This document shows, piece after piece, positions 4,781 through 59,273 of a stretch of 64,000 bases of DNA. Position numbers and translations under genes: made by a program. The number at the start of each line of letters is the position of its first letter. The first letter of the stretch is position 1. Source of the DNA: Ceratodon purpureus (Eukaryota; Streptophyta; Bryopsida; Pseudoditrichales; Ditrichaceae); NCBI GenBank assembly GCA_014871385.1, contig CM026433.1:15379985-15443984 (forward strand), written 5' to 3'. The notes beneath the pieces are model-generated. The model saw nothing but the letters and a program-made list of their open reading frames with translations. It ran no database searches and was not told the DNA's origin.

Positions 4781-4852
4781 TTGGAGTTTGGATCATTGTA
4801 GGCTCTCGTAAGGTGTTTCAGACCCTCTTAAGGTATTTCAGACTTCTAGAGT

Positions 4853-4925: not shown

Positions 4926-5174
4926 ACAGTTTTGCTAGTGATACACATTCTCGAACTAGGTCATTAACCACCCTCTCCATCTGTTCGTTCAGTTTTCTTA
5001 TCACCGTTTTTGGTTATTGATGTCAATGTGCACCGTTGTCCTCAAGTGCGCTCTTCAAGATTGCAATCCTCCATCGGAAGCACATCGTGCCATATTTCTT
5101 CTTCAAGTGTTGATCGATCCACGGACTTGGATGTTGTGCTTGCAGGAAGGAGAGAATTTGGGAAGCCGATCTTC

Positions 5175-23966: not shown

Positions 23967-25536
23967 TGCTCTAAACTACTTTTCACCCACATAAAACAGA
24001 ATCCACATCACCACAGTACTATCCGAAGATGACGCAACATGATCTCTGTTAATGAAAAGGAAAACTGATCCTGAAATGAAAAGCCTATCCCGGCACCCAA
24101 ATCCAGACATCTGGAACTCGTGAGCTCCAAGTCCCAAGCCCCAAGTCCCAAGTCACGTTACAGGAAGATCGGACAGCACCTCAGAGCATACGGTCTCGGC
24201 AGCACGCAGTGCGTACGTCGCTGGCATACGAATACGGGCATGCACACTATCGAGGCTGGTCTCGACGTCGGCGTGCACACAACCAAATAAAATGGGCCGA
24301 TTGATTCCCGATCCGCCTAGTCGCCAGATTTGCACTCTCTCAGCTCCCTCCGCGCCGTGGCTCCCGAACTCGTTTCATTTCAGGACGTTGCTCTCTTCGA
24401 TCATACTCATCCCCTTCATACGTTTGGAGGTCAGTAATCGACGTTCATGAGAAGTTTTGTTGCCTGCAGCAGTTCTGGAATGCGTTCGCGTAGGGGTGCA
24501 CCAATTCGTCACGTCGAGGGTTTCGTTTCACGAGCAGTAGATTTCGGGGGGTTTTTGCTCCCTTCCTGCATTCTGTGAGTCGATGTTTAGGATGTTCGAA
24601 TTAGTGATTGAGCGAGGTGAGCGAGGAACTTGAATTGGGGCCATGATTGTTGTAGGAACCTGAGGTTGCGCATCATCGCTGACCACAGGTTCGGCGATTC
24701 CTGGTGTGTGTATGTTTGTGCAGGTGCTGCTCCAGCGATCGTTCGTGGCGTTTGAATCTGGGAGTTGCTGATTTCCGCGTGCCGGCGTTCGCGACCCACG
24801 TCTGTGCAGGTTTGTCGTCTGGTTGTGTTTTGTGTTATCACATTGGTTTTCTCAATGATTAAGTGTTACGAGTGCAAAGCGTCACCTTTCTAGTGTTCGA
24901 TGTCTGCGCGAGGGAATCGTGTTTACACAAGTTAGGAAAGAGATTCTGGAATGACCTGATCCTCCTTGCGGTGATAAGAAAGTTCTCACCCCGAAGTTGC
25001 GAGCTGGTGCGCATGTCTATGTGTTGCGCGATTGAAACTGGTTTTGGACGTTTAGGGTTTTGTGTTTGTAGATTCGTGCAATGAAAGTGTAGGTTTCGAT
25101 GACCAGCAAGTGTCCGTAAACATTGACGTGTAGAACTTGAACACCCTGGGCCCAGATTGTGCTTGTTCGTTTGCAGGAGTGCTGAATTTAGAGGAATCCG
25201 GTATGGTTGTTGTTTGCGTCGATGTGCTTCTTGGTTTTGGGAATGCAAAGTGTAGTAGCTAAGGTTTGAAGAAGGTTATGGTACCCGTCAATCAGACAAT
25301 TGGATTTCACAAGTTTTAGGGTAGTTGAATGTGGTAGCTCGTAGCCTTAGGCATTAGGCATATGAATATCACCCTTGTTATCACTGTTAGGCATTGATCG
25401 GTGGAGTAGGGACATGATTAACGCTTGCTTAATCCTGATTAATATTGAATTAAGACGTTGCGATTAGTGGATTGTAATGCATTTCAGAAACGTTGCAGAT
25501 ACCGCAATAGGCATTTCTGAAGACTTTCGCATTTTA

Positions 25537-25559
25537 TGATACTAGACTCTCTAGTATCA
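25537..25559. repeat. Perfect palindrome, copy B
   Basis: Same 10-bp arms and CTC loop as at 4758-4780 in copy A. Confidence 0.6.
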
Positions 25560-25631
25560 TTGGAGTTTGGATCATTGTAGGCTCTCGTAAGGTGTTTCAG
25601 ACCCTCTTAAGGTATTTCAGACTTCTAGAGT

Positions 25632-25704
25632 CACGTGAGGCGGCGCACTTGGAGGGTCATGTGACAATCTCAAGCTCACGGCCTGGGACCACCAAGCTCA
25701 CGTG
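25632..25704. promoter_or_regulatory. G-box/E-box cluster, copy B
   Basis: CACGTG at 25632-25637 and 25699-25704 and CATGTG at 25658-25663, identical in arrangement to copy A. Confidence 0.5.
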
Positions 25705-25953
25705 ACAGTTTTGCTAGTGATACACATTCTCGAACTAGGTCATTAACCACCCTCTCCATCTGTTCGTTCAGTTTTCTTATCACCGTTTTTGGTTATTGAT
25801 GTCAATGTGCACCGTTGTCCTCAAGTGCGCTCTTCAAGATTGCAATCCTCCATCGGAAGCACATCGTGCCATATTTCTTCTTCAAGTGTTGATCGATCCA
25901 CGGACTTGGATGTTGTGCTTGCAGGAAGGAGAGAATTTGGGAAGCCGATCTTC

Positions 25954-26370
25954 ATGGACGCTGCAAAGGCGAGGACCCATTCCCCCAGCTCCGGTCTCCC
26001 GGCTGTGGAGCTTGAAGCACACGTCGAGGAGGCAGACGCCGCCGTTCCAGCCCCCCTTCGCTGGTCAGGCAAGAGAGCTCGCACGAAGAAATTGGAGTCG
26101 AAGAAGCACAAGGAGCAGGACCTGGACGTGGAAATCGATTTGGAGGTCGTGGTCCAGAAGGTGAAGAAGTTGAAAATCACCGGACCGAAGTTGAAGACAA
26201 CTGCGCCGGTGTCGGTGGATTTGGAGCCGAAGACGTTAAAGGCCAAGGAAACCGATACCGCGAATCAGGACACAGGCAGCTGGATCCGCGCGGTGGCCGA
26301 TGTTTGTTATAGCCATCTCCTCGCGTTAGCAGATATTGCTCAACCCAGCGACAAAGTCGTGAATCCTTGA
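25954..26370 (+). CDS. Hypothetical charged 138-aa protein, copy B
   Basis: This is the paralogue of the ORF at 5175-5591, of the same length, with the same acceptor site before the ATG and an identical first ~90 residues apart from one or two changes. Residues of about 92-113 differ sharply (KETDTANQDTGSWIRAV here against LEIDSTVDEDTSRMSAL in copy A), while the last 24 residues return to near identity (VADVCYSHLLALADIAQPSD...). The reading frame is kept through the diverged patch, including small compensating length changes, which argues for a translated product. Function is unknown. Confidence 0.5.
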   Translation: MDAAKARTHSPSSGLPAVELEAHVEEADAAVPAPLRWSGKRARTKKLESKKHKEQDLDVEIDLEVVVQKVKKLKITGPKLKTTAPVSVDLEPKTLKAKETDTANQDTGSWIRAVADVCYSHLLALADIAQPSDKVVNP

Positions 26371-27245
26371 AGCGGACTTGGTGATTCCGGCCTCGATTCT
26401 GTGACACAGGAAAGTAATAATCTAGCACACTTAAGAAAACACTTTACAGAGAGTAGATACTATAATTAGAGTACGTATGATTTTGTGAACGATTGTTGAT
26501 GCGAATATATACGGCAATTTGCTGCCGGGGAACTGCAGCTGGACCATGATATTCAATTGTACGTACTGTCAATGATACCTTGGGATGTGTTCTCTGCGCC
26601 AATTACAAATGAGCAACTTTGCTGATTCCATACTTTGAAATTGTTACCATAATCACCTGAATCGTTTAAATTCTGAAGTTTGCTTGAATGGTATCGTTTT
26701 GTTTGTACTTGTGTGTACATTGTCACGTTGTTTGTGTATCCGAAATTGGTTCTACAATATTCTTGATCACATTCTTGGAGTACTTATAAGTCTTCTAGAA
26801 TCAGACCTTATTGCAATTTCAGGAGTAACTTGGCACGTTGTGTCATAATTATTGTTAAGCTTGCACATTTGAACCAGTATGTTTTTAATGTATCTTTTAG
26901 GATTTGAGTATTCTGATTTTTCAATGGATTCAATGTTGTACATTGTCAACAGTTGAATGTGGAAATTAAAGATTTGTATGTATAAATAAATGTATCACTC
27001 AGTTGGACTTTTTATTCTTGTGTATAATCATTTTCTTTATAGGTTTGAAAACATACATTTTATTTCTTGTTTTTTGAAAAAATATGAATTTTAGTTATAT
27101 GCTAATAGAATGTGGAGCATAGTTCTTGGTTTTACCATAATTATTGAATCTTTAGCGAATGAGGCAAATAATTTTTATTTTCATTGTATTCTTGTAATTA
27201 TCATTTATTATTGAGCTTCATTACTTAAGCATTTGATATCAATGT

Positions 27246-39102: not shown

Positions 39103-39486
39103 TTCCTATGAGAAGCTACAGCAAGTATGAATTGTAGGAATCTATTTGTTCGATAAACTGATTTCCACGTAAGCAGCATCGTGTGCCAAGTAAGGTCCAC
39201 ATCCCAGATCCTCGAATAAAATAACCTCGCTTGCATCCTCAATACCAAAGACGAGTTTCCATCTTCTCTCTCGTAGTGTAGTACCTTCCATCGCGCGCTC
39301 AGTTGTCTGTGTGCTTCATTGCTTCAATTCGGCGATCTATCCTTGACCTGAGAAAGACATAGATGCAGCCCTGCCAAAGAGAAAGAGGCGGCTGCACCAG
39401 CCAATTAAGTAGATCAAGTGCCACAGCTATGATAATTCTGACCCGATCGAAGCAAACAATATCGATCGAGGAGCTGCCAAGACTCA
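38135..39486. other. Intergenic DNA up to the CACTA insertion
   Basis: Contains the promoter side of the minus-strand DsbA-like gene and an AAT microsatellite. The last three bases (TCA, 39484-39486) are the target duplication of the CACTA element. Confidence 0.6.
39071..39103. repeat. (AAT)n microsatellite
   Basis: About eleven uninterrupted TAA/AAT triplets. Confidence 0.95.
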
Positions 39487-39514
39487 CACTACCAGCAACC
39501 GTGTCGCCCGTTAC
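39487..39514 (+). repeat. CACTA left terminal inverted repeat
   Basis: 28 bp starting CACTAC; pairs with 59243-59270 with four mismatches. Confidence 0.9.
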
Positions 39515-40528
39515 TCCGGATCCCTAGGAGGGTGTCGCCTTTGACTCGTCGCTCCTACTCGCGTTGGTTTGCGAGACTGAGATGCCGGTTTCCTTGGTTC
39601 GAGTGGACCCTCTTCAAAGCGCAGCGAATCACGTAACTGCTGGTCCCTGAAGTAAACCAAGAGTAATCCACGTAGGAGTTCCAATGAGGAGATCATTCCA
39701 CGTCGGAAGAGCCGTGAGTTTCATCGTGGTGTTTGTAATCGAGTTTTTAGGGATTGGGGAGTGGGAGGGTGGGGTTTGGGTTTAGGCTCTTCATGGCCAT
39801 TTCCAGGTGACGTTCGAGGTGCGTTTACGCAGTGGACCCGGATGAAGAGCTTAGCCCGCCTGTTCTCATGAAATATGGACACAGGAAATACTCCAACTTA
39901 TGTACACGTGAGACTGGTTTATCCTTGTCAGATATGAAATAGTCTTCTTTTTTACCGTCCATCCATTCAAGTGGAAACAAAACAAAATGCACGAATGTTT
40001 CATGGAGCCAGCGTTGTGTCTTAGGTTCAGTCGAACAACAACCGGTAGGGCAGTAGGAGCAGAGAGACACTGAAATAGCATCATCACAAAGTTCTTATGC
40101 AAACGAATTGTCTTTATGTGCAAAAACTATACAAGGATTTCAGATTTTCCTACGTGGGCTATACTCTGAGCAAATATCCGCGCTGTATATACAGTAAGAA
40201 AAAATCAAATGTGGAGTACATAAGTGATTTGATTATGCTGCTCCTATGTTCATATGCTCTGTCACCAGAACGCCTCCCTCATTCCGTCGTCATACTCTAG
40301 GGTTCAGGGAGCTTGTCTCAAAATGTAACTTCGACTTCAGCCCGTGTCGTTCCCCGTTGTGTTGTAGCCGGCCACCTTCCCTTTTGGATTGAGCCCCTGG
40401 AATGAACCACCTGTATCTGCGGCAGTCACAGCACATGTGTCCGTCAGCCTTCGCAACATGATATACAATGCAGTTAGTTGGAATTGTTTCAGTCAGAAGT
40501 CATTATCCAAATTAACGACCCTATGAAT
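39515..40528. other. CACTA left subterminal region
   Basis: About 1 kb without a supported gene between the left terminal repeat and the 3' end of the 539-aa gene. Subterminal TNPA-binding repeats would be expected here, but I could not define a repeated unit by eye. Confidence 0.5.
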
Positions 40529-42753
40529 TTAGCTATAGGAATGTCTAATGGTTAAACAATATTCCGTACCTAGGGGAATCTCCACCCGGCGGTGGTTGAA
40601 TCGGTACGGCGACATAATCTCCAGGTCTGCGAACACAGCAAGCGAGTCTTTGTCTTCCAAATTCGGGTTTTGAAGCCCCATTGGCGCACCTGCAACCCGA
40701 ACGAGTTCATCTAGGCTGACAGAATCTGATGCGTCCGAATGGCTTGCTTTCTGTCTACATTCGACCAGTCCTACAAGATCTGCATTCGTAAACAAACCTG
40801 TCAGCCAGTGACACTTTACGTTGTATGCATGGGATTCACGAATAAGACTATGTGTTTCTCAAAAGAAAGGGTGGACTTACTAGTGGGTTCCTGCTCTGCG
40901 TCTTCGTGGAAGCAATCCTCTGAATTTGGGGTAATCCTTGACGGGACTCCTTCCTCAGAACGAGGCGATTCCGGATAATGAGCCCTCCAACGCTTAGCAG
41001 CAATCCACTGCGCTCTTGCATCGTCCTCAGCTTTCCGTTTCCGAGTGATCCCTTCGAACTCGACCTCCCACTCCTTGAGATAAGCGAGCTTTAGTACCGC
41101 GGGTAATGCTTCGAAGCCGTTCCGGGTTGCTCGTTGTTCCACTGGCCAAAACCGGTTTCAACGTCAATCACCCACTTCGTACGGGTACCGATACTCCCAT
41201 TACCAAATATCATCTTTAAAACAAGAGTGACGCACTACATAAAGTACACTGAAATGCTGGGCTGAAAAACGAACTCACTTTCTTGGTGGACTGAGTCGTA
41301 TACATCTCGCATAGTTTGTGATAGTATCAGAGGGTCACTCGAAGTACTTCCGGGAAATGCCACTCCAGTCGAGTTGTGTGTCCTCCGTTTGATGTCGGGA
41401 GATGCCTTCCGTGCAGCGCTGTCGGATGCAGGGTTCGCTCCATAGCTGTCATCGCTGTCGCTGAAGGCTTCAATTTGCCGAGCACCATCCGGAAAGCCTA
41501 GTAACGATCACAAGGTTTTTAAGCAATGTCAGTAGCGCCAAGGAAGTGACTCTACATAATTAATTACCTTGATTCAATAATCTGAGTTTTTTTTGTTGAT
41601 TACACTCCTCATGGCAGACACGGAAATATATATTTAATGCAAGTATCGGGTCAATGTGCATACCTGGACTTGGCGACATGGGGCAGGCACTCCACTTGTT
41701 CGCGGCCTCAACTGTCCGGCGTACGCCTGGACGAGTGTCCCTATGTCCCAATGAGTTGTTATTGACGTCCCCACTATTCTCTGCAAGTTACAAGTACATG
41801 TGGTCAGCGCAGGCGACAAAGTTCTGAGACAGAATTAGGAAATTCAGCGGGGCATTGCAACTGACTCTGATTCGGAAAAGAGAAACACTGTTGCGGAGAT
41901 AACACAATCGTGGAAGATAGCGTACCTCCGGAACCATCTTCGTCACTGGATTCATCATCCCCTGATGTACGCCCATCACCCCCGTCTCTCCCGGAGCTGC
42001 GTTTATGGATTACCACGGATAGCTTAGAATTCCCTCCACATTTTCAGCCAATTGACAAATACCCATGTTAAGACAGCGTATACTAGGGCGAGGTAGGGTT
42101 CACATACCTCCGGTGTTTCGTAGTCCTCCATACATGGGAGGGGCGATGATGGAGTCGTGTCCGATACCAAGGGCATCCTTCAGATTGTAGCCATTCACTA
42201 GTCGAGCGTTCATCTGGTGTACCATGCGGTTAATCTCCCAGTCGTCTGCAGATCCCTCCAATTCCCCCTCGTCCTTGTCAAATACTTTGTTTTCGCGCCA
42301 GCTTCCGTTCTCCGCAAGAGTCCTGGCTTTTAACTCCTCCAGGGTCTCAAATGGGCGGCGTCCTCTTCTGCACTGCTTGGCGGCGAACGACGCCCAATTG
42401 ACTGCATAGCCCTGCTTCTCCGCAATGAGACCTCGTGCAAATCCCAGACCTATGGCACGCTGCTTGCCAATGGGTCGCTGATGGGTGACCTGGTAGAGTT
42501 TTTCAACTCGGTATCGCATCCTTGGACTCTCGGAAAATGCCTTGCTTGCATACCAGAACTTCCCCCCACGCTTCGGCCCCCATCGAAGCACGCACTTTTC
42601 CTCGTCCGAGATGTTGTCCGGGAGTGCGTCACGAGCCAGTCTTGGAGCGCCCGGTATGTATCCGTAGTTGTTGAGTTTCATCTCAACGAAAAACCACGTC
42701 GGCGACCCTCGATCATCACTGCGCGCTCTAAGCTGTCCTCCAAGAGAAGCCAT
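40529..42753 (-). CDS. Uncharacterised 539-aa protein carried by the CACTA element
   Basis: Six exons on the minus strand close exactly in frame, all introns in phase 1: 42753-42108, 42033-41926, 41780-41664, 41497-41279, 41141-40881, 40797-40529. The product is 539 residues. The exon 2 acceptor (GGAG) is the least certain; the others are good GT-AG sites. The first 215 residues form the most structured part, aromatic and basic (LRWGPKRGGKFWYASKAF, then FARGLIAEKQGYAVNWASFA). Exons 2-4 are Ser/Asp-rich and probably disordered (SGDDESSDEDGSG). Exon 5 has a Trp/Lys/Arg-rich helix (KEWEVEFEGITRKRKAEDD). I do not recognise a family. Its place in the transposon and its regular structure suggest an accessory transposition protein, perhaps DNA-binding, or a captured host gene. 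Constant phase and an unbroken frame argue that it was recently functional. Confidence 0.65.
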
Positions 42754-44560
42754 ATTCTTCAAACAATACCGTCGCTAGAACGGTGCTTGACGCGTCTTCC
42801 GGCTCTGCGTTTACCAAGATATCATCGCGGTATGTTAGAAAGTGATCAGCGACAAGCGGTACACATGTGGAAAACCGAGACGCCTCTCGACAGCAACACT
42901 CAGCAGCGAAGCTACGACACAAAAGGAGTACTCGGAACGCAACACGTGAGAGAAACTCTATGGCGCAAACGGAGCGATGGTTCGTTACCCGCCACACATA
43001 GGAGATGAACAGAGTGCTATGCTGAGGGGGGGAAGATAGAGAAACGACAAGAAGAAGGTGACAAATGTATCTGGTTCTGTTCTCTGCTGTCCGAGACGGT
43101 GCAACGCCCAGCGCCCCCGATTCCTTCGAAAGCAGTATGAGTCTTCGTGTTGTGAAAGCGTTCTCTTAGCTAATAGTCCAGGCACCAACTACGAGGTACA
43201 GAATGATATGTTAAGACAGCAGAGGTGCACCGGAACGCTACAGCCCACGGAGAACATAGAGAGCAAAGAGGGTGTGGTCGGGGAGGGGCGAGGGATTTAT
43301 AGGTAGAGATTAAGGTTCCCGCGTCTCAAAAGTGGCCTACTGAGGCCGAGTTTCGTGACAGCGAACTTTAATCCTGGGCAACTGAAAGTGCTGATTGCCA
43401 CGTCTTGAAGGCATTCATTTCAGCGTCACTGAAATGATGATATTGGGTTATGTTCTTCAGCACCATCCTGTCCAATCGGTCACGATCTCCACTGATGGCC
43501 CACCCATCTGTCACACCGGGAAGTCCTGACCGGGGTTGTCACATACGCGGGTCAGATAAATTCATCTTGACTCATCATGGTTTATGTTGAAGTGAGACCT
43601 TTCGTGGGGGGATGGGAGGGAGTGGGATTTGGTGAGAAGACAGGCTGCTCCTTGTCATGAAGCATTACTCATGGGCCTGGATGGCTGTTAAATCAATGCA
43701 CGCCTCCACCACCACCTTTCCTGGACCAGAACGTCACAAGTCAGAATGACATTCAGAGCAATCTTATTTCTAATCGAGAATCAGCAGGTAGATGGCGCTG
43801 AGTGACCTGGTAAACCTCTAGGGCTAACATGGATCCTACCATGTCTATGATGTCTCACATCTCTTCTCTAATATGAAGTTCTTGCTGGATTTGGATATCA
43901 TGATTTTCTGACATCTGTCAAAATGGATTGGATGTAGGAGGAGTCATCAACGTGCACGGGAGTGGGGGTTGAACTGTAGGCACACGAACAATAGGTACTG
44001 AGGGGATTGGCGCTTCATGAAAGGTGTTGGACACAAGCTCACACAGGGAGGCAAGTATCACATACCTCGCCCGGGGTGGAGAGACGAGAACGTTGAACTG
44101 CTTCAACGTCAAAGCAATTTTGGAGACGACATGGAACGTGAGGACTCAATGTCAGGCTGATTGACCATGTGGCATCGCTCCCGAGAGCACAGTTTCTTCC
44201 AGTACTCCGGTCTCTGCTGCATAGCAAACCATGCTAAGAAAACGGGTGTTGATGTCTCTACGAAGACATCGTACTCTTACTCTGGATCACAGGATGAACG
44301 GTAAAAAACTGGCACGTTTCTTGTCCAGCATATAGGATGGCGCAGAAGGTTAGCAAGAAGTACTTCAATCAGAACGTGAGCACAAGGTACCATTGCAGGG
44401 GAACTTACCCGTAGAGGTGTTCCTGGAACAGTAGGACTCATGTTTCCTCCTGATTCTTGGCAGTTTAGGGAAGTGGTGGTGTATCGTCCCCTTCGTCCAG
44501 CAACCCCAAGATGCAGACATTGGACTAGGCTGACACCTCGCCCGTGTCAGAAGCGATAGG
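42754..44560. other. CACTA internal spacer (promoter side of the 539-aa gene)
   Basis: 1.8 kb between the 3' end of TNP2 and the 539-aa gene start. No supported gene; presumably holds the promoter of the 539-aa gene. Confidence 0.5.
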
Positions 44561-47500
44561 TTAATTATCGTCTATGACATCCCGGACATGGACAGGCTCT
44601 TCCGCGTCTCCAGCATTAGCGGAAGCAGCTCCCCCCACGGGTCCGGTGTCGTCATCCGATTCTGGCTCCACGTGGTCTTCTTCCATGTATGCAGCCTCTT
44701 CATCCATCTCTTCGTGCGCCACGACGTGGACGACGTCTGCTTCTAACACTGGCTCGTGTGGACGATCTCCACTGCCGTCGTCTTCGTAGGAGGACTGCCC
44801 GATGTGAGTGGCATCTTCGCGGCCGGGGGCGCTAAGCGTAGCTTCTGTCACTCCTCCTGTTACACGCGCTGAGCGGGGGTCCTTATACCTCACAACCTTC
44901 CAATCTGGATCAAGGGGGTCGTCGACAAAATAGACCTGCATCGTTCACGACAACGCTTAACCTTTCAAATTCTCTCGGAACTATGCGAAAGGAAGAGTAG
45001 CACATAGAACGTTGAACTCGGAAAAGCAATACAATGAACCGTGAAATAAGTGGTACGGATGAAAGAACACATGTGTCTGAACAAGCCAGACCTGTCGAGC
45101 ATGAGCTGGCATTAGGTATGGCTCCACTTCCGGGCTTTGACGTGCACCGTACTTGACGAGCCAGAACCCATCCCTGTCTTGTTTGATTGTTGGCTCTCCA
45201 GCCAAGTCTGGCTTCATCCAAGAACATCTTAGAACTTTGAAATCGAGATGCCCGTAGTCCACATGCACGATGTCCTTTATGATACCAACGTACTGCAAAT
45301 CCGCCTCCACTGGGTTCATGTCTGCTGTCGAAGACCTGCAAGTCTGGGTGATGATGGCTGCAACACCAGCATCGAAGGAGATATTCTGCCGTCCATTCTC
45401 ACTGTCCGTTCGAAAATGGTAACCATAGGCCCACATAGAATTGTGGTGCTTCACGTATGGCGAGGGTAGTCGTGACATTGCCACGAGGTCTGCGGAGGGG
45501 TTTTCCCCGTCAATGCCCATTTGCCGTACCCGATCCTCTATCCAGTCTGCGAGGGGGGCTATTCGCCGGGGGTTGTGACGTCTCAAGGCTCTGCGTTCTT
45601 CAGAGTATTCGCTGCTTGGAATAAGAACCCACGGGAATCGTCAGTTCTGTGCCTGTAGCACGTCTGCAAGTACGCCTACGATTTAGCCCCGTCAACTGCT
45701 GAGTCCAGGCTACTCATACTCCATGGTGAAGTTCATAGACCGAGATGGGTACAGAAGCGTTGGTGAAATTAGAAGCACTCTCGTGTGTCGTATCCTAAGC
45801 TTTCGTTCATTAAGGATGGCAGGGATTCTCGAAATGCGGCGTACCAGCAGTTATTCGAGAACACGCTATTGAACGGACAATACAGACCAAAGGATAGGAA
45901 TCTCACCGGTACAAGTTGTCTGTGATGTCTGAATTTCGCAGAATGTGTTCGTGTATCTCCTTCAACTTATTGTCGCCCCAAAAAACTTCTCGTGGGCGCC
46001 CCTCTAGAACCTCTCCCGTGTCCTGCTCGTGCTCTTCCATATCCCACAACACCCTCGCGATCCCGGGATAAAGCTGGAAGTGCTCTGTGGCGAAGCCGAT
46101 TGCCTCTTCGTACATGTACCCCTGGGCGATGGAACCTTTGGGCCTAGCCTTGTTTCTAACCAAGCCCTTTAGATGCCCTAGGTAACGCTCTACACTGTAC
46201 ATCCAGCGTGCATGTACTGGGCCGCACCAGTACAGCTCGCGTGGCAGATGCAAGGGCAAATGTTCCATGGCGTTCCAGAAAGCTGGGGGGAAAATAAATC
46301 TCTATCAGACTACATGTTTCAGCAACGTAGGTGGTTAGCACCTGGAGGTCACTTACGAGGATCCTCTTCTCGCATATCCGCTTGAAGCAGTGTCCTAGTC
46401 GGATCACGGCTAATCGGGGTCCATCCGGCAAGGAACCTCTCAACGCTGCGGGCAGGATTTCCTCAAGGAACACGTGCCAATCATGAGATTTCATGAATTG
46501 CATTTTGCCTTTCTCAATATTCACCAATTTCGAGAAATTGGCGCAGTGACCGGAGGGGGTCTGCACTGCACTGACAGTTTCCAATACCCTGCGCTTTTCA
46601 CCTGGGCGGAGGACATAGGGCGCGTGGGGCTTGATATAGCCATCTCCGTCGTCCTCGCGTACCAAGTGCAGGTCGCGCATGATTCCTTGGTCCTCTAGAT
46701 CCTTCTTCACAGCGATGGTATCCTCGTCTCCCAAGAGAAATCCAGTTACTTGGGCGGCCACGTTTTTTTCAATGTGCATTACGTCAAGCGTATGCCTCAC
46801 TAGAAGTTCCTGCATCAACATCAAGTGACAACCGTGGTAACTGTTGTAAGATTTCTAGCTCGCTCAGCAAGATAGAATACAAAGACGTAGCAAGGTAGTA
46901 CTTACTGTGTGCACCACTCGAGCTGCCTCTTTGAAGGTTAAATGTTTCTAATCGAGTTTACAGTATACAGTACTAATTGAATGCTTGAAATCGACCGCCG
47001 GTGCGACTGTCTGTATTTGGAGCCAACAAGTCCATCATCTTGGAGTCGACATGGGACTAGACAACATATATATGGTCTAGGAAAACATCTAACGAGGCTA
47101 CGCTACAGTTTTAGTTCCGAGAATAATATTACGACAATGTTTGGCAACTGAGCAACATCGGGTAAGGAGATTCAAGGGACGGGCACGGTTGCAACAGTGA
47201 ATGCCAGTGAATACAACAGTTTCGACCATGGACCACATGCAAGTTCACGGAATGAATCGAGGGGACGAGCTAGTACCTTCCAGTACGGCAGCCTGAACAA
47301 CGATGTCACTCGTTTCATTCCGTGACGCCGAACAGGGTCGTTCTGGAATGGGGCGCCGTGCTGGCGAACCCAACGTACGCGCTCCTCTGCTCTTTGCAAG
47401 GCCTCCTCTCCGGTAACAGGAACCGGGGCAAGACGGAACTCGACGTCCTCAAAATTCGTTGTGTCGCTCCTCAAATGGTGATCTTCATCCAGCAGAAATC

Positions 47501-49526
47501 TCCGCGCGCATCCACAAAAAACATTCTTGTGGAGGACCTTTGACCTCCGGGACCTGAACCCCTCTCCGCAAACCGGGCACCCAACAAAACCATTGGTGGT
47601 GCAGCCTGCGAGTACGTCGTATGCCGGGAAGTCTCCGATGGTCCACAAAATCATTGCTTTCAGGACGAAGTGGGTTGACTCCTTGTAACGTGCCACATCC
47701 CGGCAATACACTCCGTGTGTCCAGAGATCCAACAATTCATTGATCACTGGCGCCATGAACACATCGAAGAACTCGGATGTGACGGACTTGGGCCCAGGAA
47801 TCAAGATGGACAGCATAATGAAATAGGTCTTAGTAGTCAGCCATGGTGCAATGTTGTAATTAAGTAGTAATATGGGCCAGATAGAATACGTACTCCTTTT
47901 GTCAGAGTGAGGGTTAAAGCTATCTGTGACAAGCGCCATCCTCACGTTCCGATCATCGTACCCAAACTCCTCTGCAAACCTCTCCGAAATCCACCTCCAC
48001 TGTGCCGAATCAGAGACATGTGTCATTACACCTTCTGGGTTGTTCAGAAGAGCCCACCATGTCATAGCTGCGGCCTGAAGCGGGCTGCGAAACATTCGCT
48101 TCAGCCGTGGAATGATAGGAAAAAATCTGCATACCTTGTAGGGAACTTCAGATCTACCTGAACGTCTTTTCCGAGGTGCCCTACAGACGGGACATACCGT
48201 GGCATCCTTCAAACCTTCACGAAAAAGACAGCAATTATTAGGGCATGAATCGTATGATTTATAAGTGTGCCCCAGCTGTCGAAGGTAGCCAACAGCCTCA
48301 CGGTAAGATTTCGGCAGTGAGTTTGGCTGCGGGAAGAGGGTTGTGCTCAGCGTGCGGAATAACTCGTCCACGTATGTATCCGTACAACCATGTAATTTAC
48401 ACCCACTTAGAAGTATATAGGTTGTCTCCATAGCGGAATACTCTGATCCTGCAAATAATGGAGTCGCCGCGGCCTCCTCCAGGGCCTGAACGGCTTCGTC
48501 GGTTTCATCATCGGAGTCGCCCCACTCATCACCTTCTTCCTCGTCGGAGGATTCAGCTGAGTTTGCGACAGGCTGGCTTCCTTGCTGATGATCGTTTCCG
48601 CTTCTATCCATGTCCTCCTCCATACCGAAAGCTGGTACTGAATTTCCAACATCGGGACCCCCATGATCATGCGAACTCCCTTCAGGAGGCGCCGCAGGAA
48701 CCCCTCCATGTGCCATGAACTCTGGGACTTGAGCCTGTGCTTCGTCTGCGACAGGAACCTCCTCTCTAATAGGTACAGGCCGCCCTTCCCCTCTTGCGTC
48801 GGCACACTCCTCTCTGATTCGATCGGCTACGTCGAATGCCTCGATGACCATGTGTGTCGTATCCACACCAGGATCAAGGTCACGCTACCGAAGTGCGTTT
48901 GGACGGGCTATAGCTTGGGCCCCGTTGTACCACGATATGTGGTCATCCCATTCCGAATCCGAGTCGTCCGCATCGAACCCCTGGATCAGTGAGAGAGAAG
49001 GATTACATACAGGACTTCATTTGCGAGGTTTGTGGAGTATAAGGTTCGACCTAGGTAAAAAGTGACAGTTGTGAGTTCAGACTAGCGTAATTAATTTCAG
49101 AAACTCGAACTACATTTGCTAAGCCCGGGAATTAACAATGGAGGAAGGGATTTAAGACATTGTCTAGGGCTGCGTCAATGCTCGCCCATATTGACACCGC
49201 TTCGAGGAGAGGATAAAACATCACGAAAGTGAACCCTAAACCTAATTTGGAACACGATCGCAGTGACAAGTGAAATCACGCGTCCTCCGAACAATGCAAC
49301 GTACCTCTGTTGCACCAAAAAACCATGGATGTCTCATGTTCGCTTTGAGGCATCTCCTGTAAGACAGCGGTGTCAACTCTGTTTCTCTCATATGGATTCT
49401 GCACGGACAAGGCATTTTCGTTAAACCCATTTGTCTCGCTGTCTCGAGTTCCCGCTGGAGAAGTTTCGCTTCGCGGGCGCGAATCCGGCGTTCGCTGGGT
49501 GCCTGGAGGCGTATTCCGGGGTCCAT
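44561..49526 (-). CDS. TNP2: CACTA transposase TNP2 (Transposase_21), damaged
   Basis: Exons on the minus strand: 49526-49305, 48980-47277, 46809-45907, 45614-45092, 44935-44561, about 1,240 residues. Order of parts: a Cys-rich transposase-associated segment (MPCPCRIHM); an acidic linker; a zinc-binding pair CPNNC...CPVC; the catalytic core with VTDSFNPHSD, YSIWPILLLNYNIAPW and LSILIPGPKS; ILWTIGDFPAYDVLAG; then HTLDVMHIEKN; the DUF4218 region (GPVHARWMYSVERYLGHLKG); the DUF4216 region (WAYGYHFRTDS, VYFVDDP); and an acidic tail. It would cut and join the element ends. Two lesions are visible: an in-frame TAG at 48887-48885 early in exon 2, and one extra base in a run of six G (plus strand 46285-46290), where the frame shifts inside the FPPAFWNAMEHL block. 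An assembly error in the homopolymer is possible. The start of exon 4 (after CCAAG) is inferred from frame. Confidence 0.88.
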
Positions 49527-51353
49527 GGCGCACCTCGACGGAATACTGCTTCACCTTCCTTGATGAACCCTGCTCCGAGTAGTCCGCCCTGCCAGTAGCG
49601 AAAACGAAATCAATCAGGGCAGGAAGCAAAACGAAAAGCACGAGAAGGGGTATGAATCGCGAACCTTGGTTCATACGGCATATAAAAATGCAAGAACAAA
49701 TTCCACACTACCTAATTTCGATATTACAGACTGCTTAGCATAACCGCTGGTACAATGTATGAACGTCTGGGGAAGCACAAATTTGTAGCAAAATGACCTA
49801 ACTACATTGTCCGGTCCAAGTATATACTCACACTGAACGGATGGACTTCGTCTTCTTCCAAGTTCCCGTAGGTCATACGTCTCCAGAAACGATACTATTT
49901 TCGTCTATTCTGTAATCCTGATCGCTGCGCACTTATCTATTATTTAATCCTTAGCGAACCCAGGTGGAGCGAAGTTAATGTCTTCGTGCGAGGCACAGAC
50001 TGCATGACTAGCTTGGTTCCAGCGAAACACAGCACACAACTATTCCTTGAAGAGGGGCTTCTGAAAAGGCTGCCAACGGCATGCGAACCATTTGTTTCTT
50101 GAAACTTCGTTCAGAGTTACAAAATAGCGCAAGTGCTTCCCGAGTCTTCAACCTGAAATGTGCGTCCGAAGATAAGCTCACTTTCGGCCATGGACACAGT
50201 CGCATATCTAAAAGCAATTACGCTTGGTGACATAAGGTCCTTACTCCTGTTTCTGAATGTAGAACACTGTCTATCCATCTAGGTTTCCAGCCGAACCGGA
50301 CGAAATGGCATCGTTGCACCCTACGACATAGGACTCTAGAACCCTATGAGGAGGCCTGCTCCAAAACGATGCCACGGCGCTAACATGGAGTAAGAGGAAA
50401 GCCTGCAAGTATGATATACATTTTGGGAGGGTGGGCAATGGTTACTCACCATAAACCCTGAAAAGTTAACCCGCTCGTGAATAACCCAATACCTAATTCG
50501 GAACCCGGATCAGAGAGGTAGGACAATGGACAGAGGAAAAAGGAGTGGATAGAAGGGTTTCGCTAGAGTAAAAAGATACAATGGAGAGGGGAGGGGGGGA
50601 TTTGGGGGGGGGGGGGTGGGGGGGATGGTTTTTCTGGAAGGTGTGGTCCTGTTCTCGACCGCTGCCACAGTCCCTCGATCGGTTGCGAGAGTCCCCCACT
50701 CCAAGTCCCCAACCATCACCTGCAGGGAGTTATGGCTCCCTGCATGTCAGGCCAAAAGCTGATTAGGCTCCCTAAAGATTTTCATGTGACGACAAAAAAT
50801 CAGTTACAGCTCGGCCCTTTTGCGCGAAGCGTGGCCATCACTTTCCTACGATTTAGCCTGAGAGGAAATAGACTGCAACTAACCCTCCAGGGCTTCCACG
50901 AAGACATCTCCTAGAGATTGCGATTTGCAAGACTGAACTCCACCCATCCCTACATGTCCCACGACTGCGGTGAGTTCGGTGCTTTGAGGGGCACAACGTG
51001 TGATTTCCGATTTTAGCGTCCGCCAGGAGTAATTGTCATGCCCATGTCGCCGGGGAGAATGCGGGCTAGTTTGTCTTACCTGAGTTCTGATATCGCTTTT
51101 GATGATCCTGCTAGGGTTTGGATGAAACAACCGTGACGATGGCGCACCTCGACGGCGGCTTCGAATGGGCACCTTCACCATATGTAAAGAGTTATGGCGT
51201 CGATCTTTGCAGAAGCGGACATCCCCACTGTTGCTGCTCTTCAATATCTCACAAGGTGTGTTCAGACATCTCCCCCCCCCCTGCTTCTGCCTGCGAGGTC
51301 ACTCTGAATTGTTGTGTACGAATTAGCAGCGTTGATAGCAGTAGTAGTGGTTT
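49527..51353. promoter_or_regulatory. Divergent control region of the CACTA element
   Basis: Lies between the start of TNP2 (minus) and the F-box-like ORF (plus). It holds a G-rich tract at 50588-50624 with several runs of three to thirteen G, capable of forming G-quadruplexes. No gene of its own is supported. Confidence 0.4.
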
Positions 51354-51908
51354 ATGGATCACTCAATGGTACGCCCGAGCAGAATGTCGGAGAGGAGGTG
51401 GCTCGAGGGTCCTGAGGGTCTCCATCAGACTATGTTGGACGTTTCAGAGATGGCATGCTTCCGTCTTGAAAGGTTTCAAAAAAGGCATAGACTGCATGTG
51501 CCTGAATGGACTCATCAATGGTCCTCGGAAACCGACAGGGAGATTCTCAGTTCCCGGAGAGATCGTACCCGAGTTGTGGCAGAAACCTTCATGGACTTCC
51601 TGCCTGTTGATTTAGTAAAGGACAAACTATGGCCATGCCTCATGGACGGTCCCAGTCTTCACGATAATTTCAAGACATTATGTCTGCTGAGGTGTGTGTG
51701 TAAGGCATGGATGTTCTACGCAGAAGGCAGCAAAGAGTGGCAGCCTTGCTTCGAGTCTTGGAAAAAAGGGGCTCATCGGTACATCGCAGAGTACGATGAA
51801 AACCCCTTCCTCGACACTGATTCCGAGTCGGACCCGTCTTGGGGCTACGAAGAGTTCGAAGAAGACTCCGAAGAAGTCAGTACGGCTGTAGACTCCGTGG
51901 ACGGGTAG
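51354..51908 (+). CDS. F-box-like 184-aa ORF inside the CACTA element
   Basis: An unbroken frame from ATG to stop. Residues of about 80-130 (FLPVDLVKDKLWPCLMDGPS, then LCLLRCVCKAWMFYAEGSKEW) have the pattern of an F-box: a Leu-Pro start, hydrophobic spacing, and the 'L-R-x-V-C-K-x-W' core. It is followed by a very acidic tail (DTDSESDPSWGYEEFEEDSE). No leucine-rich or Kelch repeats follow, so if real it is a short F-box protein, perhaps captured from the host to link the transposon to SCF ubiquitin ligase. An upstream exon near 51.1 kb is possible. The F-box assignment is by pattern only. Confidence 0.4.
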   Translation: MDHSMVRPSRMSERRWLEGPEGLHQTMLDVSEMACFRLERFQKRHRLHVPEWTHQWSSETDREILSSRRDRTRVVAETFMDFLPVDLVKDKLWPCLMDGPSLHDNFKTLCLLRCVCKAWMFYAEGSKEWQPCFESWKKGAHRYIAEYDENPFLDTDSESDPSWGYEEFEEDSEEVSTAVDSVDG

Positions 51909-52494
51909 CAATAGGGCCGTTTATAGGATTTTTTAGTGCCCGGTTTCGTACTGTTCGCTCGATGTCCTGAATGGACTTATCCAGATGTAGTTAGCTGCGT
52001 CAAACTCTGTATCGGGCTATGCCCCCATAATATTGGTAAAGGGGCGTACATTTTTAGAAGCAACCTCAGGGTCTTCTGGAATGAGCGTCGCAAGTTCTCT
52101 CCTTACTGTTTGATTCCATGTGTAGTTGGCCATGAGGAATTACAGTCGTGTGTGCTTGAATAACGAGGTTCGAATCATATCCATTCTGACCCGATGCCCG
52201 TTCACACATGTCAGGAACATTTTTCAGGATCAGAATTGGCAAGACTACAGTGCATTCCTCAACTGTTCGGCCCGGCGGTGGACATGACGACGAATTCAGC
52301 TGGGGCTTCGTTGAACGCCACACAGGTGTAGTACAAACACATCCCTCCTTCCCCCAGTCCATCTTCCGCCATAGAATGTCTTTGTTTTATATCAAAACCA
52401 TTGGTACGATCGTTGCATCAAGCAACGGAGCTTTCCTAGATTTATAGTAACCTCAAAATCTCAATGCGTACTACAGGCAACTTCAACCGGGCAC
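51909..52494. other. Spacer before the TNPA-like gene
   Basis: About 0.6 kb without a supported ORF; probably the promoter and 5' UTR of the gene that starts at 52495. A CTACAG acceptor-like site at about 52471-52476 suggests a 5'-UTR intron. Confidence 0.4.
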
Positions 52495-55400
52495 ATGCCA
52501 GTAATGACAACTTATCCACAACGTCCACCGTACATGCATCCATGGGGGGGTCAAATGATGTACGGTGGAGGGGTTTTGCCAATGATGGATTCGGAATCAC
52601 AAATGCAGTACCTCTTCAACGGATATCCAAATCCTCGAATGAATCCGCGCCAGACGACATTGAACGCCGTCAACAATTCTGCAACACGTGTGCTGTCGTC
52701 GGGCATGTCACTCGACCGCCGTGGCACTGACGATGTCACTGGCAGTACAAGGCAGTCACTGTCGACACATTCGCAATCGCTGAGCTCGCCGATTACGAGC
52801 CATTACTCTGCGTCCCTTGAACGAGACATGAGGATGAGGAACACAGCATATGATTTCCACTCGCCGAGACAGGGATCAGATTCAAGTAACCCAGACATGG
52901 CTGCGAACTACCAACCTTACATTCCGCAGTTGCCAACCTTCTCTGCTCCCGGAGGTCCATGGCCGGCATGGCGCGGTGGATCTGTGTTGTCCCCCTTTGA
53001 CATCGCACCGTCCACGTTGGACATGCCTTTAGGAACCGATGGTCCGGAAACGCACCGCAGTACACATATTCCTAACAACAACGACATCGCGATTGCGGGA
53101 GAGTCGAAGAGGACTGCTCAACGCAGAGTCCAACGACATCGGAAGAAAGACTTCAAGGTAAAGTCAATGCAGTGGCCAATGAAGATTGCGTGCAACCAGA
53201 ATGGAGAGCCTCCGAAAGAGGTGCGATTGTACGTACACGCACAATTCAGGGCAACGGCGAGGAAGTTCCTGAACTTCTCAGTGGTACATTTCCGAGATCA
53301 TCCAGACTCCGACATCAAAGTGGTGAGAGAAGACCTGGATAGACGATTTCTCTTTGATCCTCCACTGAGAGAAGGTTACATCCTAGGGTACATAGAGACG
53401 TCCATGCGCACATCACGATATCTATGGCGGAAGTTCTGGGTGACCACCGGCAAAGGGGCTAAGCACAGATTTTGTCCTGCTAGGTACTTTCCTGCGCTTG
53501 TCACTTACTGGAAGACCGCTGCGGCCGAAGAGGAGAGTAAGCGCATGAAGGAGGCGCGAAATGCTGCAAAGAAAAAAAAGGCAGAGCGTCTTGCCGCACG
53601 CGAGGGAGACGCCGATGAGTCAGAAGACTTATGGGATGTAAGTGAACGACATCATGGTTTCTATATGTAGAATGTTCAAAGATCTATTCCACACGCAACA
53701 TCTAATCACCGAAACAAAGAAATGCGAAATCATTGGTTGAGGCCAGTATACAAGTTAATCTGTACAGTTCTGCGTGTTGGATTACTGAGCCTCTCATCTT
53801 ATGCCACTTCAGAGTTGATTTTAAAACGTGACAATCTTGCAGCCACTGGTGGATGAGGACTCGTATAACATTCTGTGGGACGAACCCGACGACACTGAGG
53901 TCACTGACCTCAGCGAGGACTTGACCACATCAACGGATAATATCGACGCGGACACATATGTACGTAACGTAAATCCCTGCGAGATTCATTATCTTGTTTG
54001 CTTCTACTTACCTCCATTTTCTTGCTCTGAGGGAAGTGGTACCCTGACTGCATTGCTGCCTGCCAATCAATCTGAAACGTTACCCTTTTCCGTGTGTTCT
54101 AACACCGTTAGGTCCCCAGCACCGCCACACCGGCATCAGGAGAGGGAGATACGTCTGTTGAGGTAATGCAAATGAATTTGAACTCGTTATTGTCAGGGCA
54201 TGAATTCCATATACTAACCCTGGACCCTTGAAGACCCGATTCACATGAAGCATGTGGCATGTACAGGTCGTCGCTGACGTGGAAGCCCGACAACAAACAG
54301 GCACTCCCAATCACGCCACAGAGAGCGTTGTCCGATCTTCGAAGACGGACATGCTTGTTCGTTCCATCGGGCGGGAGCTCCTCGCAGTCCGGAAAACTGT
54401 GGACGGATTGTCGTCATGGCGTGACGGTGTAGATAAGCACATGGAGCAAAGTAAGGAAGACATGAATTACGTGAAACAGAAACTGGACCTGCTACTAAGT
54501 GCAATGTTGTCTTCAGGGCGAAATCCAGTAATGGTAACGACAGAGGGCCAACAAGATGTGCAGCGCCAAGGTAATGACGGGTCGGATGCAGGAGCCGAGT
54601 CCAACCTCGAAGACCGAGATGGGCACTTGTCATCGGATGCGACCGTTGCCGAAAGAACGGGGTCGGCATCCGTCATGACGACGGAAATGTCCAGGCGGAA
54701 CCTGGCATTCCCTGCGCCAGGTACGTGACGCTGACACCTAGTTAGCCTCTTATGCCACGCTTTTTGCAACCTTGAATCACAGCTCATTGTGTAAGGTCGT
54801 TCTATGTTGACTCCTACAACATTGACTTTTGCCGTGATGTCTTTCGCCAGTCCCGGCCTTTTGTGTATATAAGTCTAGCTATTGAATTGCACAATGTTTG
54901 TCCGATGTTATTGCAATCCGTGGTATGATGTGCAGAGGAGGCAGCGGGATGGGAGACCGCTAATGAGAGTACGGATCATGCATGTGTTATCGGACGTGAG
55001 GACATCGAAAAGAACACTTCCCCGAACGACACCGCCAGCAACCCAGCTACAGGGCACGTACAACTTGCGGAGAAAGGAAGTGCTGTCATGGCTGCGTTTG
55101 GGCTGCCCTGCCCAGACAGATTGCTAGTACCAACGAAACGTCCGGTAGAGGGAGGTACGTACAGTCGCGATTGCTCCCCTCCGACCTGGCATCACCAGTC
55201 ATATACTTATCAACGGAACAAATCACTTGCACGTGCTTCATATTGACCGTAATACCGTATATTTCCTCGAAGCTGCAGGTGAATGTGAACGGGGATCTAG
55301 TGGACCGGCACTGAAGCGAGGCAAATTAGCTTTAGGAAAACCGAAGATGGTTCCTCTTCCGGTGCAGTCAGGACGGGCTCCATGTACTGTTGTGGAATCC

Positions 55401-55930
55401 GGAACGACAGATCGACCAAAACGAGCAAGGAAAAGGCCGTCAAAATTCATTGACTATGTCCCCCCTGCTGAGAACAAGCCCCGGGCCGAGATGGTAAGTT
55501 ATATCGACGTTGAAAAGCTTATCCGAGAGAGAAGATGTCTCATTGAAAGTTGCTAACCACTTGGTTCTTAATGCCATTTGCCTTTACTGTGCAGTGTGAG
55601 CCTCTGAAACCTTCCAAAGCAGTGTGGATTCTACATCCAGAACACCAGAATAAAACGATAGCGCTCGGTCGTTGTGGGCAACACTGGAGGTACAAAACGA
55701 AAAAACTTGTTCCAAACATCGACGGCGTATCGTGGGAGCATGGAATGCAATTGGTCACGATCGAACATATCTATCCAGAATGGTCACAGGCGAAGGTGCT
55801 GTATCCGGATTCGCAGCGCCAGGGCATCACAACTATAGGAGATGCTCTGAAAGGGGATTTCTCAGAGGACGCTACCATCCTGTGGCAAACAAGATACTTG
55901 AATTTAGTGGAGGTCAGCAAAGTGAACTGA
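52495..55930 (+). CDS. TNPA-like accessory protein of the CACTA element (Ptta/En/Spm family), intact
   Basis: Seven exons close in frame: 52495-53637, 53843-53959, 54112-54162, 54267-54720, 54936-55154, 55279-55493, 55595-55930, giving 844 residues. The first ~190 residues are Met/Gln/Ser/Pro-rich and probably disordered. A basic segment (KRTAQRRVQRHRKKDFK) leads into a region resembling the plant transposase Ptta/En/Spm domain (PF03004): VREDLDRRFLF, WRKFWVTTGKG, PALVTYWKTAAAEE, then a Lys/Arg-rich helix. Exon 4 has a likely coiled coil (LVRSIGRELLAVRKTVDGLS... to KQKLDLLLSAML). The last exon resembles the TNP1/EN/SPM domain (PF03017), with VWILHPEHQNKTIALGR and TTIGDAL near residue 812. In En/Spm, TNPA binds subterminal repeats and brings the ends together; this protein is inferred to do the same. 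No break is visible. Confidence 0.75.
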
Positions 55931-58900
55931 CGGGTAAGGTAGTCATTTTGATAGTTTCCGACCTTTTTTGTAATTGATGTTTTCTATAATGCCCTTCATA
56001 TTCCACGCAATAAAGCACCGAGCTGTTTAGGGAAATTGACACACACACAGTTGGTTCGGAATCATTGAAGTACAGGCCTGGACGTTGCGAGAGAATACCT
56101 TGAGGAGGATTTGAAGCTCGAACCTGACAATCTCCGCGGCGGCGGCCAACAGTGCGTTCCGCAAGGCTCAGCACCATGGTCTTGCGTAAGAGGCTTGTTC
56201 AGAAAATGCAGCAGTTTCAGAGTAGAATACCCCCACGCAGACCTCTGACTGAGTCGCAGTATGTAAATGTGATTAGCTCTCTCGGGGCAATCGTTTTCTT
56301 GAATGACAGAACGCTACAGTACACACAACACCGTGCTCTAGCATGTGCTGTGTGTTCGTCTTGTTCCTTTTCATTCATGTGCGTACGGGTATATTGTTCG
56401 TATGTCTCCAGCAAATATTCAATGGACTTCCTGTTGTATCATCATTGATATTTTAAAGTAGAACCGATTCTTATAAGAAGTTACTCACCCCAGTTGCCAA
56501 TACAGCGAAATGTCCACAGAGTAACCCGTGCACTAATCATGACGAAGCGAGCATCGGCGCCCCACTTGACTGAGATAAGCGCAGTAACATCCACCTTGGT
56601 CATATCCAGTAAGAGGAGGTTGGCCGGAGGGTGGAGAATGTGCAACAGAGAATATGTATAGGAGGCTCAGACAGCAGACCCCTTTAACGTTTTGCAACCA
56701 ACGGAAGAAGTGGTGCCGGATGCACCACTTGACGGTTAAATCTGAACGCAGCATGTACGCCTTCCGGGTTTCACTAATGTGCGATATGGTTGATTTTTTG
56801 CAGAACAAAATGAGAAGAGACGCCGACGACCCTCGGTTACTACTCTCATCGATTGGAAGGAGTAGAAGTTGTAAATGGCAGTTTTGATCATCTCCGAGAG
56901 AAGTCAGGCTGGAGGAGTTGTAAGTGGAGCCAGTTATCGTCTATGGGGATCACGGTAAGCAGCACTCCACCAGAAAGTTCCTCATCAGTTCCATGGATTT
57001 TTACAAACGTATGTCAATGATGAATCGCATCGACGTGGTCACATATATTGTCCCGTCTGTGCATACCTATGGAGAGTATTCCATGCTGTCCCGAATGGCC
57101 CCGCTTTAGTAATTTTTTTTGCATTTCGATATGAAGCGCCGACTAGTAGTGTGGAAGAGAAGATGTCGGGTCTGGAGTCCCCCCTGCCAACCGTTTTTCC
57201 TCATGTCTGATTTCTCTCTTTCTCTGCACATACATATTCTGATATCCCCGCGCTTAACAGGTCTCCCCCCCTCCCTCCCCCCCCCCCCCCCCCCCCCCCT
57301 CCCCCTTTTCCTTTTCCTTCTTCCTTTTCTTTTTTGAAATGTCGCGGTTGACAATGGGACATTTCCTCTTCAAATTTCCCTTCACCTCCAATCCAGAACT
57401 ACATTGGTGGCGCCTAGTTCGGGATGTTTTTTTTTTTTTTTCCTACTTTGTCTTCGGGAATGGGTTCTGCATACGGGACAGTATGAATGGAAGTACAACT
57501 GCAAAGGTATTTCTGAGACTCTCCTTGTCACTTGTCTAAGTGTCTCCGTTGCTCATAACTAGGACATTGTGTTTGCTTTGTTTCTTCCTTCTAGACTAAG
57601 GGTGTCGTCACAGGAAGAAATGTTTTCGCAGGAGACGGAGACCGTATAGCACGCCTCATCCCTCACTGTGCCACCTGACCGTCTCAGCCCTCCTATGGCA
57701 GTATAGATGACTGATCCATCCCCACTACCGAGCACCTCCTCGACAATGATGGGTGTACATGGTAAGGGCCGTCTCTAGCGCTATTCTAACATTACTGTCC
57801 ACGTCAATTTTTATTTTCCACTCCCATTGCAGTAACAATTGGCTTTTTGTGTACAGATACACCTCAGAGAAATCTCCTTGAAAACAGTAGCCGAAACAGT
57901 ATTCTTCCAGGTAGTGTCAATATGAAACCTTTGGACCCGTTGCTCAACCTCAACTCTTTCTCCGTGGAGACAAGTGCCTGGTTTTTGTCAACTACTTGTA
58001 ATCGGTCACTCACACTTCCTTATCTCTATGCTGTTATAAAGTAGGGATTCCATATTATTGGCTGTCATTTTCGCAGTGACTCGGGGACAGGTTCAGTGCA
58101 AAACTTGGCTCAGGGATGGCTCGATTTTGTCCAACGTTTAAAGGTATGTGATTGTTTACGTATTTTCATGCTCAAATGCTTCATCAGCAATGGGACGAAG
58201 TAAGTCATTACTTGTCACTTATAGGGCTTCCACAGCAATGTAGGTGACGTCAATTACTTATTTTTCTTTTCGATTCATTGCTAACCCGGCTTTAGCCTGT
58301 TGCTTCTGTGAAACATGACATCTCGCATAGTGTCACCATTATTCACGTGCCGTCTCCGTGTATGAGTGTACAGACTCACAGGGAAACAAATTCTGCTTCT
58401 CAATGGCGTTACCCTCCACCATCCGCTACAGACAGCGCTCCAGAGTAATTGACAAGAGGGGAATCAGGATAAACCGACAACTCCTCAAACCTGTACAAAA
58501 TCAAGCAAACCGGGAGCCTCAAAATCCAGGGATGTCACACATGACAAAGAAGATAGATGGATACATGCTTCCTATAAAGCGGAGGGATTTTAGTTAAATC
58601 CAAAAGCTTATACCATCGTATAAGCGACCTGTAACTAATAAAAAATTATTAATCATACAAGGTTTTTGTATCACAATGGCGTACATGTATTCCAGTCCAC
58701 GCAATACAGTGTGAATATGGCGGCGGAGAAAGTCTCCACGTCGTCAATTGCAGTTTCATCGTAGCAACCGAAAATATACAGGAATTTCCATCCGAGAATA
58801 TTCATCCACTCTGACGATATTGTCGGCAAATAGATGCGATGCACGCGTCGTCACCATATGCCACCATCCAGATCCTCCGCGACGTACCCAAATACTTCGA

Positions 58901-59242
58901 CATCTCGGCGAAATCCATCGAACCGTCCACTCTGCCCAGAATCCAACGGCCACTCAGACGAACGGTAAAAATGAGAGCTCAGTTACTCCACGAGCATAGT
59001 CAGCATATGCTCCATTCCACGTCACCGAAGGGCAGTCCAACCTGGCACCGAGGGCTCGATTGAACCCAGGATGAGCGCCTGGAGCGTCGAGAATCAGTTT
59101 CATATGGGGCAATGTCGTGGGCCCTCCTCTTGTTTTTTGTGACGCGGATGACTCAGGAACTCGCTAGTTCCTCGGGAGACTCCGGCACCCTTCGCAGAGT
59201 CAGTTCTGTGTCGCCGGAGCCCACTTTATACTATATATTACC
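55931..59242. other. CACTA right arm, no supported gene
   Basis: 3.3 kb with only short frames (for example a 79-codon frame at 58358-58597) that I cannot link to a family. It includes a run of 23 C at 57277-57299 in a pyrimidine-rich stretch and subterminal sequence near the right end. Confidence 0.5.
59155..59172. repeat. Subterminal palindrome in the CACTA right end
   Basis: AGGAACT and its complement AGTTCCT flank CGCT, about 100 bp from the right terminus. Subterminal short repeats are where TNPA-type proteins bind. Confidence 0.5.
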
Positions 59243-59270
59243 GTCACGGGCGACACGGATTCTAGTAGTG
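59243..59270 (-). repeat. CACTA right terminal inverted repeat
   Basis: Ends in TAGTAGTG, the inverse of CACTACTA; followed directly by the TCA target duplication at 59271-59273. Confidence 0.9.
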
Positions 59271-59273
59271 TCA

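Follow-up and report, generated by a model that had tools for sequence, protein, structure and literature searches.

Organization of the locus

Positions 39487-59270 of the window, by which we mean the whole 64,000-nucleotide stretch of Ceratodon purpureus DNA analysed here (G000:C13:15379985-15443984, from a searched genome of 362.5 Mb in 151 contigs), are occupied by one fully bounded CACTA (En/Spm) element of 19.8 kb. Its four gene regions form two divergent blocks, with a TNP2 transposase gene and a further gene, here called gene X, on the minus strand, and an F-box-like and a TNPA-like gene on the plus strand. The limits of the element are given by the following features:

39484-39486, no strand: left target-site duplication TCA, read from the sequence
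39487-39514, plus: left terminal inverted repeat, 24/28 identical to the right one
59243-59270, minus: right terminal inverted repeat, from sequence comparison with the left end and from end matches elsewhere
59271-59273, no strand: right target-site duplication TCA, read from the sequence

The terminal inverted repeats are of the CACTA type, the left end opening with CACTAC. Read from position 39487 the left end is CACTACCAGCAACCGTGTCGCCCGTTAC and the right end, as inverse complement, is CACTACTAGAATCCGTGTCGCCCGTGAC, the two agreeing at 24 of 28 positions; among 20,000 random pairs of 28-mers from the window none reached 24, the top score being 18. An earlier, sequence-only reading of this DNA had proposed a bounded element on the strength of these ends and of the TCA on both sides, and the sequence together with the random-pair control bears this out. 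The sequence GTGTCGCC, counted on both strands, occurs twice in each 350-bp end (four copies in total, two of them inside the terminal inverted repeats) and nowhere in the interior. The first 1 kb of the element finds matches at six other places in the genome, five of which begin from exactly base 1, and further genome matches to the last 1 kb begin partly from the terminal base. When the flanks of the element were used to search this assembly for a paralogous empty site, with very common words skipped, just the two flanks themselves matched.

Two other repeats were observed in the window. A direct repeat of about 2.46 kb (3179-5634 and 23970-26416; 97% identical, 20.8 kb apart) could represent a pair of LTRs or a repeat of some other kind present twice, and an inverted repeat of about 350 bp (19521-19868 and 22857-23193) is 86% identical.

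Relatives sharing both ends

A search for other copies with the same ends, suggested by the sequence-only reading as a check on its proposal, identified two relatives possessing both ends and their own 3-bp duplications. The shorter (C6:67864426-67867731; 3,306 bp, duplication GCT) retains, at 82-87% identity, roughly 330 bp from the left end and roughly 700 bp from the right. The longer (C8:16762666-16774204; 11,539 bp, duplication ACT), in which both ends are good, lacks any blastn match to element bases 1420-9808 (gene X, and TNP2 beyond its first exon), but does align with the F-box-like and TNPA-like genes. In a third copy, of about 2.9 kb (C6:102506986 to about 102509871), the right terminus is damaged and a duplication was not observed. 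The large size of the element (19.8 kb) might suggest that two elements, nested or adjacent, were taken for a single one, a reading that had been named at the outset as fatal to the proposal. Since both ends recur jointly on the 3.3-kb and 11.5-kb relatives, each with its own duplication, they do not stem from two nested elements, and the collinearity of the genes with those of a 17.6-kb sister element (below) likewise argues against such an origin, which we regard as extremely improbable and have rejected. One element therefore accounts for both ends, and derivatives of it carrying deletions have moved.

Gene content and the sister element

The genes and related features of the element are as follows:

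40816-41157, minus: possible last exon of gene X (tblastx, 36% amino acid identity over 53 residues to the sister; weakly conserved)
42100-42753, minus: gene X main ORF, 224 aa (62% amino acid identity over 206 residues to the 17.6-kb sister)
44561-49526, minus: TNP2/TNPD-type transposase gene (PF02992, DUF4218; collinear with the sister)
about 49305-49526, 47268-48980, 46357-46809, 45907-46282, about 45090-45614 and about 44561-44937, minus: inferred TNP2 exons (conserved blocks and GT/AG)
48885-48887, minus: in-frame TAG in TNP2 exon 2, with no stop at that place in 28 other comparable TNP2 loci
49527-51353, no strand: central region of 1.8 kb between the divergent blocks, from the gene limits; presumed control region
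51354-51908, plus: F-box-like gene, an open frame of 184 aa from the ATG common to its relatives (family alignment and Pfam/hhalign profile comparison)
52375-53670, plus: main ORF of the TNPA-like gene (weak Transposase_24 match, below cut-off)
53834-55936, plus: further conserved TNPA-like blocks (tblastx; the last, 55589-55936, has 74% amino acid identity over 116 residues to the sister)

The sister element (C2:10263027-10280642) is 17,616 bp long, with the target-site duplication TGT and terminal inverted repeats matching at 24 of 28 positions. A tblastx comparison found all four genes to be collinear between the two elements, whereas toward the ends (the outermost 2.6 kb at left, about 3.3 kb at right) matches were short and weak only. 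A plasmid protein search gave no match. The proposal of at least four genes in two blocks transcribed away from the centre is therefore upheld by ORFs, Pfam matches and this collinearity. Other parts of the sequence-only reading did not survive. A 539-aa gene had been reported, and no such ORF is present among 64 stop-to-stop ORFs, the longest measuring 570 aa (a TNP2 exon) and 431 aa (TNPA-like). The element had also been described as larger and richer in genes than usual. The sister carries all four genes in matching order within 17.6 kb, and its ends are paired at that length in at least 15 places, so an exceptional size for the family is rejected and an exceptional gene number is unsupported. 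Taken as a whole, with its inferred steps included, the reading of the locus as a structurally complete CACTA element, in which the standard gene set of the lineage comprises TNP2 with gene X on one strand and, opposite them, the F-box-like and TNPA-like genes, is one in which we have high confidence.

The TNP2 product matches PF02992, the TNP2 domain, at E 4.2e-55 (186.7 bits, cut-off 28.6), followed downstream by DUF4218 at E 1.2e-25 (90 bits, cut-off 27) and by a DUF4216 match at E 0.0091 that stays below its cut-off (17 bits against 30.6). The motifs TDSFNPH, DFPAYD, CPVC and DVMHIEKNV, which we take to be catalytic-site landmarks of this type of transposase, are readable in the frames of the window. 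Splice sites and exon limits come from visual inspection of conserved blocks and GT/AG. Nine TNP2 pairs were compared for selection, of which five were saturated and four gave dN/dS values of 0.11-0.20. The in-frame TAG was compared across 30 TNP2 loci, comprising the window's own, which has the stop, 28 without it (17 of these being near-identical burst copies), and one (L026) that is unaligned there. Stops also lie inside many other TNP2 matches listed for the genome, and a TGA in the burst copies may be intronic. As a consequence of the in-frame stop the window copy is now probably non-autonomous; the description of this element as complete thus stands for its structure, but not for its coding capacity.

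Gene X gave no Pfam match, either for the window ORFs or for the sister ORF, despite 150 relatives scored in the genome, and is apparently an undescribed conserved CACTA protein. In the TNPA-like proteins, Transposase_24 was matched at corresponding residues in three of three, with E values of 0.025-0.081 (0.025 in the window), all below cut-off. For gene X and two TNPA-like blocks compared with the sister, synonymous sites were saturated and pN was 0.17-0.24.

Copies of the sister element

The 400-bp ends of the sister are found, identical to the query and about 17.6 kb apart, at C2:10263027-10280642 and in at least 14 more places. Among the ends listed (40 left of 72 candidates and 40 right of 75), 18 same-strand pairs lie within 15-30 kb of each other, 15 of them at 17,593-17,622 bp and three at 24.6-26.9 kb. 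When 17 sister copies were compared over about 4.65 kb, 105 of the 136 pairs showed no substitution, gaps not being counted; the largest difference amounted to 1,312 sites and involved a copy in which the flank probably runs past the element's edge. The sister family represents either a very recent burst or, in part, an assembly effect.

In raw numbers, many of the diverged single copies among the listed TNP2 and F-box matches fall on the 110.5-Mb contig C6, and most listed burst copies on other contigs. C6 is probably a sex chromosome; sex chromosomes of 110.5 and 112.2 Mb are given for C. purpureus in PMC9273592.

The F-box-like gene

The F-box-like ORF singled out by the sequence-only reading is real and recurs across the family, with a weak Pfam signal and clear profile similarity to other F-boxes encoded in this genome. 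The window copy scores 13.2 bits with Pfam F-box (E 0.092), below the gathering score of 20.5. Family members were aligned as the window protein plus 23 of 36 other F-box loci, leaving out the window itself (1), loci with internal stops (5), duplicates (4), near-duplicates (2) and one with no ORF by the filter used. Among these 24 members, at E values up to 1, Pfam F-box was matched in nine (best 3.6e-4) and Pfam F-box-like in seven (best 0.0096); seven other Pfam families each matched just one to three members, and two members re-scanned singly with Pfam gave no match. Aligned by hhalign to same-genome F-boxes (16 presumed host genes, hand-picked from 150 scored loci of 920 candidates), the family profile reached 91.3% (E 9.7e-7) over LPxDxV...CxLRxVCKxW, whereas none of 40 column shuffles exceeded 1.2%, and the gap in this alignment places the spacing inside the domain at nine residues longer than in the compared F-boxes. 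The protein further comprises a conserved N-terminal stretch and an acidic tail, with no LRR, Kelch or WD repeats recognised. A profile search of the PDB with the family gave no hits, and a single-sequence AlphaFold2 model of the window protein was unusable (pLDDT 46.6).

These data bear on whether the conserved protein is an SCF adaptor at all, since its core could instead be a helical domain, derived from or resembling an F-box, that binds DNA or the transposase. The weak Pfam scores, the longer spacing within the domain and the lack of recognised substrate-binding repeats all point in that direction, whereas the profile match lies far above the shuffled controls and no other Pfam family is matched by as many members as are the two F-box models. 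On balance a non-SCF helical domain is a serious possibility, albeit one we would not bet on.

The association of the F-box-like gene with the element was followed across the genome using 76 scored TNP2 matches (the window's own included) of 2,381 candidates, so that the counts are lower bounds. These were compared with 139 listed F-box places, of 165 matches in total, and 97 of 108 TNPA-like hits, second fragments being left out of both, and with all 150 of 150 scored gene X matches. An opposite-strand F-box lies 0.5-15 kb upstream in 69 of the 76, a TNPA-like gene 0.5-20 kb upstream in 59, gene X 0.5-15 kb downstream in 59, and all three are present in 42, counts that are not independent, many of the 76 being near-identical copies from one burst. 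Four TNP2 hits also have an F-box in another orientation within 20 kb; on C3 and C105, these hits form two pairs in which the copies lie close together. Viewed from the TNPA-like gene, a same-strand F-box is found 0.3-4 kb upstream in 86 of 97 hits and is absent in 11.

Nei-Gojobori counting over 18 F-box pairs, of which four were saturated at synonymous sites, left 14 usable. Their dN/dS values were 0.09-0.18 in six, 0.28-0.39 in five, and 0.52, 0.53 and 0.85 in the remaining three, pairs of low divergence (dS 0.29, 0.11 and 0.06) with the pattern expected of decaying copies. Judged by these substitution counts, the gene is mostly under purifying selection. Moreover, in eight elements with both proteins, which differ by 14-36% in TNP2, TNP2 and F-box distances are correlated (r 0.77), a value as high being reached in six of 40,320 permutations.

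CACTA elements are known to capture host genes, and this genome is rich in F-box sequences (920 candidates, 150 of them scored), so that a host fragment captured once and carried as a passenger had to be considered. Such an origin fits poorly with the consistent position and orientation of the gene (69 of 76 TNP2 matches), with the sequence constraint, or with the co-divergence from element to element, and was rejected as very unlikely. Instead, purifying selection together with co-divergence with TNP2 implies that the F-box-like gene is an established component of the element and was not acquired by this copy in an isolated event.

Possible mechanism

The locus holds one structurally complete CACTA (En/Spm) DNA transposon with a gene set of F-box-like and TNPA-like genes on one side and TNP2 and gene X on the other. 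Judging from CACTA biology, it would move by cut and paste, with transposase from an intact relative cutting at the CACTA ends and the TNPA-like protein presumably helping; the central 1.8-kb region would drive both gene blocks, and the window copy could still supply F-box-like and TNPA-like proteins.

For the F-box-like protein, domain similarity, constraint and position suggest a role in which it would dock on host SKP1 and turn the SCF ubiquitin ligase on a protein that limits the element, such as a silencing or repair factor, or on a protein of the element itself. We put this forward tentatively, at slightly below an even chance. The recruiting surface would then be formed by the conserved N-terminal stretch and acidic tail instead of by LRR, Kelch or WD repeats. 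In a different version the protein would serve to regulate the element, degrading the TNPA-like or TNP2 protein and so limiting self-damage, and would have no part in countering host defence. The F-box-like gene usually adjoins the TNPA-like gene (86 of 97 hits), as such a function might lead one to expect, and yet we consider it unlikely. The furthest-reaching form of the SCF reading, in which a moss DNA transposon lineage carries its own SCF adaptor as a core gene and destroys a host silencing or genome-surveillance protein, would offer a route for the recent near-identical spread of the 17.6-kb sister, and is at present a doubtful proposition.

Relation to known systems and significance

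Descriptions of known CACTA/En/Spm elements usually include TNPA and TNPD alone. With members of this group such as maize En/Spm, Antirrhinum Tam1 and Arabidopsis CAC1, the moss element has in common the CACTA ends, the 3-bp duplication, TNP2 with DUF4218, deletion derivatives and a presumed TNPA-like partner. Unlike them, it has divergent blocks, an F-box-like gene and a conserved gene X that matches nothing in Pfam. Ends and transposase are those of an ordinary CACTA element; what sets this one apart is the conserved F-box-like core gene. VANCs are sequence-specific anti-silencing proteins, not F-box-like, and the VANDAL elements that encode them are of the MULE type. These elements (PMC10398659, PMC5735166) offer an analogy as plant transposons with a conserved accessory protein. 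Fungal DNA transposons including EnSpm carry a TET/JBP dioxygenase, proposed in PMC12730594 to aid escape from methylation, and are again analogous as EnSpm-type elements with an accessory gene, although enzyme and hosts differ. Polerovirus P0 silencing suppressors (PMC6593998, PMC7582759) resemble the present case by analogy only, in being proteins of a parasite, here viral, with an F-box-like motif. Among the papers listed by full-text term searches, judged by titles and the starts of abstracts, none describes an F-box gene within a CACTA element, which does not prove that such a description is missing from the literature, and passages of a review of land-plant transposable elements (PMC9033089) do not contain the term 'F-box'.

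Going by its sequence relationships, this transposon may tag other proteins for destruction by means of its F-box-like gene. If the F-box-like protein is an SCF adaptor, a transposon would be commandeering host protein degradation, in parallel to VANC anti-silencing proteins and to the viral F-box-like silencing suppressors. In a haploid moss whose sister family has recently amplified, the role of the F-box-like gene could be tested directly.
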